Positions 33,311-33,625 of a stretch of DNA of 64,000 nt are shown in pieces. The notes under the pieces are model-generated. The model did not search any database. It was not told where the DNA came from and saw only the letters and a list, made by a program, of their open reading frames with translations. A program made the position numbers and the translations under genes. Position 1 is the stretch's first letter, and the number at the start of each line of letters is the position of its first letter. The stretch is from Candidatus Woesearchaeota archaeon (GTDB lineage Archaea > Nanobdellota > Nanobdellia > Woesearchaeales > JAGVYF01), in NCBI GenBank assembly GCA_023264635.1, contig JAHFLT010000003.1:8293-72292 (forward strand), given 5' to 3'.

Positions 33311-33399
33311 CCAAAATTTGATAAATTTTAAAAACAAACTCACTCTCGCGGTAATAAATGCCCCGGTGGTGTAGTCCGGCCAATCATACAGCCCTCTCA

Positions 33400-33412
33400 A
33401 ACAAGTGGAGAA
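33400..33412 (+). other. 13-nt tRNA intron at 37/38
   Basis: BHB-like: central helix CTCT/GGAG, 3-nt bulges CAA and AAA. Confidence 0.8.
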
Positions 33413-33433
33413 AGGCTGTGACCCGGGTTCAAA

Positions 33434-33610
33434 ACAGCTTTTACTTCGTGTCGTCTTCGGCACTTCGTGCCTCGACTCCACTCCGTAAAACCTGGGAAAA
33501 AACAAGACGACTTCGCAAAGAAATGTAAGCATTTCTTGCGTAAGAAGCGTATCGCTTCTTTGTATCGTAAACAAACAGGTAGCTTCTGCATAAGAAGCAG
33601 CTGGTGAAAG
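33434..33610 (+). other. 177-nt T-loop tRNA intron at 59/60
   Basis: BHB-like: T-stem CCGGG/CCCGG, central helix TTCA/TGAA, 3-nt bulges AAA and AGT, inner helix CAGCT/AGCTG with one unpaired G; several internal hairpins. Confidence 0.8.
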
Positions 33611-33625
33611 TCCCGGCCGGGGCAT

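Follow-up and report, generated by a model that had tools for sequence, protein, structure and literature searches.

We analysed a 64,000-nt stretch of DNA (the window) from a genome of 1.316 Mb that comprises 46 contigs and is 96% complete. The preliminary description had taken this genome to be DPANN-like, and the host is indeed a member of the Woesearchaeota, presumably of the order Woesearchaeales. The window carries a tRNA-Glu(CTC) gene that is interrupted twice, once in the anticodon loop and once in the T-loop, and both introns lie exactly where they had been placed before (Table 1). ARAGORN saw no tRNA in the unspliced gene. With the T-loop intron alone cut out, it called a tRNA-Glu(ctc) with a 13-nt intron, and with both cut out, it called an intronless tRNA-Glu(ctc) with canonical stems and loops restored. 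The spliced tRNA-Glu(CUC) is a 75-mer, GCCCCGGTGGTGTAGTCCGGCCAATCATACAGCCCTCTCAAGGCTGTGACCCGGGTTCAAATCCCGGCCGGGGCA, that forms a perfect cloverleaf, all of its stems pairing without mismatch. No second Glu(CTC) gene, intact or otherwise, was found in the genome with a tRNA model or by BLAST with the gene, and the locus gave zero matches to self-splicing group I/II introns or other RNAs in Rfam up to an E value of 1. Elsewhere in the window, a tRNA-Gln(TTG) gene that ARAGORN missed (51164-51249, minus strand) has an anticodon-loop intron of ∼13 nt.

Table 1. Features of the interrupted tRNA-Glu(CTC) gene, in window positions
Feature	Position	Strand	Remark
tRNA-Glu(CTC) gene, two introns	33360-33624	+	rechecked base for base
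Exon 1: acceptor 5' strand, D-arm, anticodon stem 5' strand, anticodon CTC, base 37	33360..33399	+	
Anticodon-loop intron, 13 nt, canonical position 37/38	33400..33412	+	ARAGORN i(41,13)
Exon 2: anticodon stem 3' strand, variable loop, T-stem 5' strand, T-loop TTCAAA	33413..33433	+	
TTCA, exon strand of BHB central helix (universally conserved T-loop bases 54-57)	33428..33431	+	
AAA, 5' bulge	33432-33434	+	cut after 33433
T-loop intron, 177 nt, position 59/60, 3' end TGAAAG	33434..33610	+	
Family A copy in the 177-nt intron	33434..33503	+	model R1, 80.6 bits, E 6e-16
CAGC, intron helix 5' strand	33435..33438	+	pairs with GCTG 33600-33603
Small nested palindromes in the 177-nt intron	33516..33602	+	kinds recur elsewhere in the genome
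TGAA, intron strand of BHB central helix	33605..33608	+	
AGT, 3' bulge	33609-33611	+	cut after 33610
Exon 3: T60, T-stem 3' strand, acceptor 3' strand, discriminator A	33611..33624	+	

The ends of the T-loop intron form the BHB splice motif that the preliminary description had proposed, with two 3-nt bulges (AAA/AGT) flanking a 4-bp helix (TTCA/TGAA) at the exon-intron borders, the T-stem (CCGGG/CCCGG) on one side and an inner helix (CAGC/GCTG) on the other. Stem, central helix, and bulges all match that proposal; we refine it in that G 33604 is unpaired opposite the 5' bulge, so this side is a 3x1 internal loop and not a pure bulge. For the anticodon-loop intron, the CTCT/GGAG helix and the bulges CAA and AAA were as described, but a further inner helix is missing, and the motif is therefore of the bulge-helix-loop form. 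It is important to note that the T-loop BHB is absent from the free minimum-energy fold, the forced fold being only 1.2 kcal/mol dearer (-96.8 versus -98.0), which we count against splicing.

We assembled 183 distinct tRNAs with T-loop introns. The intron ends adjoining the motif formed a helix of at least 4 bp in 64% of them versus 8% in shuffles. Among the 137 introns of at least 22 nt, the best-supported inner helix occurred in 48 cases (∼3 expected) and begins immediately beyond the 5' bulge, the opposite strand having one unpaired base; the strict form of the inner helix was rarer, with 20 cases. Co-variation was examined with a pattern that fixed neither base 57 (R) nor its partner in the intron (Y). 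In the 121 matches listed, the pairs were A-T in 78, G-C in 34, and G-T in 9, and A-C was never seen, although 22 such pairs were expected (Fisher P of 4e-22 for the A/G by T/C table). The wider listing for the order, obtained with a looser pattern, contained ∼6 A-C cases by eye. On the strength of the co-variation, we take the BHB to be real.

The preliminary description's view that a T-loop intron is unusual in such a genome was not supported. A splice-aware scan of tRNA loci found an intron at the same site in at least 17 of the ∼39 tRNA genes identified, the latter being a tally from several searches and chosen stretches that may lack genes with several introns. These introns range from 21 to 383 nt (Glu-CTC, 177; Glu-TTC, 383; Pro-TGG, 336; Gly-GCC, 157; second tRNA-Ser, 115; Pro-CGG, 114; Ser-GCT, 104; Arg-TCG, 77; Lys-TTT, 70; Val-GAC, 70; Thr-CGT, 45; Leu-CAA, 42; Asp-GTC, 36; Met, 33; Ala-TGC, 27; Val-CAC, 21; Val-TAC, 21), and most of them end in TGAAAG or a near variant. 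ARAGORN misreads some of the genes with further introns, so several anticodons were assigned manually. The motif YGAAAGTCY was not enriched genome-wide (31 occurrences versus 43 in the control) and is thus informative only within tRNAs. The Lys-TTT gene has an additional insert in its D-loop. Two more tRNAs, Gly(TCC) (C22:23649, L012) and Arg(CCG) (C39:19854, L020), were seen by eye to have apparent T-stem introns, located at 53/54, the border of T-stem and T-loop.

Introns of this kind also occur beyond the window genome. We scanned 85,488 bacterial and archaeal genomes with the pattern CCGGGTTCRAA-N10-40-YGAAAGTCCCGG and obtained at least 120 loci. Among the matches listed, 73 were, by record title, from Woesearchaeota and 13 from other Nanoarchaeota or DPANN, and nearly all the rest came from other archaea (Nitrososphaerota/Thaumarchaeota, Thermoplasmata, Thermoprotei [Vulcanisaeta], Asgard, Brock- and Bathyarchaeota). 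A slightly looser version of this strict short-intron pattern matched 168 of 362 genomes of the order and none in the reversed control, and the former count is a lower bound, since none of the window genome's 17 introns is caught by the pattern. One bacterial match among those listed had no surrounding tRNA. Six T-loop pattern matches in viral contigs were rejected, none of them being an intron-bearing tRNA. Many records of Nitrososphaerota/Thaumarchaeota and other archaea share near-identical 16-nt T-loop introns in tRNA-Asp (L084, L085, L092, L109, L112, L155, L156, L168, L169, L171, and L198), which suggests that the Nitrososphaerota/Thaumarchaeota intron may be old and stably inherited.

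The preliminary description named the 177-nt insertion only; to this we add that the insert is a composite of dispersed repeats, parts of which match other tRNA introns and sites outside tRNAs. Its 5' portion (CAGCTTTT...AAAACCTGGGAAAA) belongs to a structured family, here called family A, whose common core is CAGCTTTTTTG..hairpin..CAAAAAACCTGGGAAAA. An alignment of 12 family A copies revealed double compensatory changes at 9 of 17 pairs. The family model, R1, had 26 matches in the window genome, the 177-nt intron included, and matched 15 of 99 relatives from the order; AACCTGGGAAAA occurs in 22 exact copies, or 38 with at most one mismatch versus 5 in the reversed control. Family A resembled no Rfam family where tested, and no copy was found in viral contigs. 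Besides the T-loop introns of the window genome and of six other genomes (G002, G020, G027, G053, G054, and G093), copies were found directly 3' of tRNA-Phe, Leu-TAG, and Leu-GAG, 3 nt 3' of three tRNA-Val genes, ∼30 nt after the 23S rRNA, and between genes; copies also lie well away from RNA genes, and in opposite orientation. The 16S rRNA gene contains an insert of ∼177 nt at GGATTAGATAC, in the 790 loop, that starts with family A (L282; G000:C3:4789-4857 and around). This insert has a plausible BHB (ATTAG/CTAAT plus CAGCTTTTT/AAAAAGCTG), with the cut site placed approximately, and is probably a BHB rRNA intron. Such a scatter of homologous copies over unrelated sites within one genome is what a mobile element would leave.

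By eye, a second, shorter family (TATTGGCGC...GAACGCCARTGAGAAAG) is present in the Thr intron here, in Val and Ser of the congener G001, and in Phe and Asn of the related genome G002. A tRNA in G002 has a long anticodon-loop intron holding a family-A-like hairpin (L388; G002:C3:55977-56139). Farther 3' in the 177-nt intron lie nested small palindromes (AAGAAATG..CATTTCTT, AAGAAGC..GCTTCTT, and AGCTTCT..AGAAGCAGCT). Nested palindromes (AAGAAAT..ATTTCTT, AAGAAGC..GCTTCTT) are dispersed in the window at 21901-22010, 31650-31760, 43780-43895, and ∼4040-4100, the copies at 21.9 and 43.8 kb being nearly identical over ∼100 nt, and tRNA introns contain palindromes similar to these. The same palindromes also occur in protein genes, internally or at the gene end (G000:C22:28010 [L024] and G000:C19:7122 / C24:14027 [L240, L239]); one of these apparently keeps the reading frame open and recalls the Rickettsia palindromic elements.

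Comparison with close relatives points to turnover. Of the tRNAs compared, five (Glu-TTC, Pro-TGG, Leu-CAA, Thr-CGT, and Val-GAC) are free of a T-loop intron in the congener G001, where the window genome has introns of 383, 336, 42, 45, and 70 nt, respectively. Conversely, Ala-CGC has a T-loop intron in G001 and none in the window genome, and in Pro-CGG, Val-CAC, Val-TAC, Lys, and Asp the introns of the two genomes differ. In G002, several family A introns of 86 to 94 nt are found in different tRNAs. These differences indicate that T-loop introns come and go within the genus and family. Presence and absence at orthologous sites is again as expected of a mobile element, with the limit that only part of these introns is family A, and to judge from these sequence comparisons, the intron family appears to behave like one.

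We found one gene for the splicing endonuclease EndA (176 amino acids; PF01974 and PF02778). Its alignment with the M. jannaschii enzyme (1a79) is near gap-free, with single-residue gaps only, and no mark of the broad specificity of (alpha-beta)2 or epsilon-2 enzymes (a second subunit gene, fused units, or a specificity loop) was found. In crenarchaeal EndA, the key lysine of that loop is residue 44 of the A. pernix enzyme, according to a review. By its sequence, the window genome's EndA is thus of the M. jannaschii-like, alpha-4 type; an EndA match was found in 94 of 100 genomes of the order, with a single gene in nearly all. The preliminary description had expected an endonuclease of broad BHB specificity, and as the only gene found is alpha-4-like and shows no sign of a loop insertion, this expectation is tentative. 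Alpha-4-type endonucleases are reported in a review to cut mainly strict BHB motifs. The T-loop motif is slightly relaxed relative to what such an enzyme type would cut, which we also count against splicing. Either this motif is near enough to strict, or the alpha-4 class is broader than thought.

We think it very probable that this is a working tRNA-Glu(CUC) gene from which two introns are spliced and that the T-loop intron derives from a dispersed element. From the observations above, we infer splicing in the cell, mobility at the DNA level, and the following order of events. The 177-nt intron would have begun as a copy of family A, which would have spread among T-loops, the 16S rRNA site, and the 3' flanks of tRNA genes, and would later have grown through small palindrome insertions. 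EndA would cut the BHB at 59/60 and the bulge-helix-loop at 37/38, and a tRNA ligase (RtcB is expected) would join the exons. The T-loop intron would owe its removability to the pairing of its 3' end, YGAAAG, with the invariant TTCR of the T-loop, and any insert with that end should then be spliceable from any tRNA. Since TTCR is alike in nearly all tRNAs and lies beside the T-stem, an insert ending in YGAA plus 2 nt would form a BHB anywhere. This pairing would explain the use of one site in at least 17 tRNAs and across the order. One consideration against a working gene is that tRNA-Glu(UUC) might read GAG, so that the tRNA-Glu(CUC) gene is perhaps partly dispensable.

The alternative that the gene is a pseudogene, an intact tRNA-Glu(CTC) broken by repeat insertion and out of use, draws on the dispersed repeats inside the insert and on the presence of tRNA-Glu(TTC). 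However, Glu(TTC) itself has an intron of the same kind, no other Glu(CTC) gene was found in the 96%-complete genome, all stems are perfect, the splice motif is intact, and the same layout recurs in 16 other tRNAs of the genome and across the order with co-variation, so we regard disuse as highly improbable. How the introns spread is a separate matter. Excised (circular) introns might have been reverse-spliced into pre-tRNA or rRNA and then copied into DNA, which is one reading of the tRNA intron transposition reported for Thermoproteales, as cited in PMC4090602. Such a route would account for the single BHB-compatible site in all tRNAs and for the same kind of hairpin in the 16S rRNA intron and an anticodon intron, but it leaves the copies between genes and abutting tRNA 3' ends, where splicing is impossible, and we find it unlikely. 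Those abutting copies, with the ones shortly after tRNA-Val and 23S rRNA, could instead mean that the family A hairpin is mainly a 3'-trailer signal of tRNA and rRNA (terminator or processing) that reached T-loops through tandem duplication of tail plus trailer. The copies far from RNA genes, some in opposite orientation, argue against this, and we rate it as unlikely, slightly more so than spread through RNA.

Recombination of DNA at the 3' halves of tRNA genes is a better candidate, though still a tentative one. Here, tail integration or tandem duplication, beginning close to the T-loop break, would swap tails with or without an intron. Consistent with this, a copy of the tRNA tail lies 20 to 420 nt downstream in 9 of 316 tRNAs and upstream in 1 of 316, often beginning at T60, and in Ser-CGA and a G002:C6 tRNA the displaced tail is preceded by what resembles the 3' end of a family A intron. 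Right after tRNA-Ser(CGA), tandem units of ∼97 nt each combine a tail copy with family A, and a run of N (an assembly gap) lies inside (L013; G000:C6:11717-12300). The numbers are small (Fisher P of 0.02), however, and several cases look like plain tandem duplication, which accounts for them as well; the resemblance of the tail copies to tail exchange at tRNA genes is suggestive only. In another genome, a tRNA-Val is followed by two more tail copies, with mutually similar units of ∼100 nt between them (L045; G046:C67).

Eukaryotic introner elements are mobile sequences that make removable introns at new sites, and they are spliceosomal and act in mRNA. The likeness here lies in removable introns at new sites, whereas it is tRNA and rRNA that would be spliced, and by a protein enzyme. 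On the reading of a working gene with an element-derived intron, Woesearchaeales might carry miniature, non-coding mobile elements that are counterparts of introners and that preferentially land in the T-loop and at the 3' end of tRNA genes. The host EndA, an alpha-4 enzyme of wider range than is credited to its class, would excise them at the BHB that their 3' end forms with the invariant T-loop, and for this reason they would be tolerated. We put this forward as a possibility only, and consider it on balance doubtful.

Noncanonical introns and tRNA intron transposition are already known kinds. Noncanonical archaeal tRNA introns are described from Thermoproteales and Thaumarchaeota (PMC6379350, PMC4033280; tRNAscan-SE 2.0, PMC8450103) and share with those studied here a BHB beyond 37/38 and the occurrence of several introns per tRNA; T-loop positions are on record, and a Vulcanisaeta record matched our pattern. 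The present case differs in lineage, in the dominance of 59/60, in lengths of up to 383 nt, and in an EndA of the M. jannaschii type where those systems have an enzyme with a specificity loop. A 2010 study on tRNA intron transposition reported similar introns in unrelated tRNA genes within a genome; relative to that study as cited in PMC4090602, the family here also has copies that lie outside RNA genes, abut tRNA 3' ends, or occupy a 16S rRNA intron, and its own fold is conserved. In Caldiarchaeum, where mobile elements disrupt tRNAs (PMC3293823), duplicated tRNA pieces lie beside intron-gaining genes, as here, whereas our units are ∼60 to 180 nt and non-coding, and neither a large element nor a recombinase was identified with them. 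The tRNA-Ile(UAU) of Cyanidioschyzon merolae has introns in the D-, anticodon, and T-arms (PMC9602550), the last as here, but in a eukaryote and with no repeated family. A literature search that missed most subscription journals found no paper describing BHB tRNA introns of Woesearchaeota. New, then, are the scale, the fixed site, the composite element, the extragenic copies, and the enzyme type.

The origin and spread of archaeal tRNA introns have so far been studied mainly in Thermoproteales. Recent gains can be compared in this large DPANN order, where congeners have or lack introns, donor repeats are identifiable, and tail exchange may have left fossils, and the order challenges the reported tie between intron-rich tRNA genes and specificity-loop endonucleases. 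When run on the 17 unspliced genes of the window genome, ARAGORN recovered 2, one by a doubtful call. Standard tRNA finders thus miss most such genes, and apparent tRNA losses may be artefacts.
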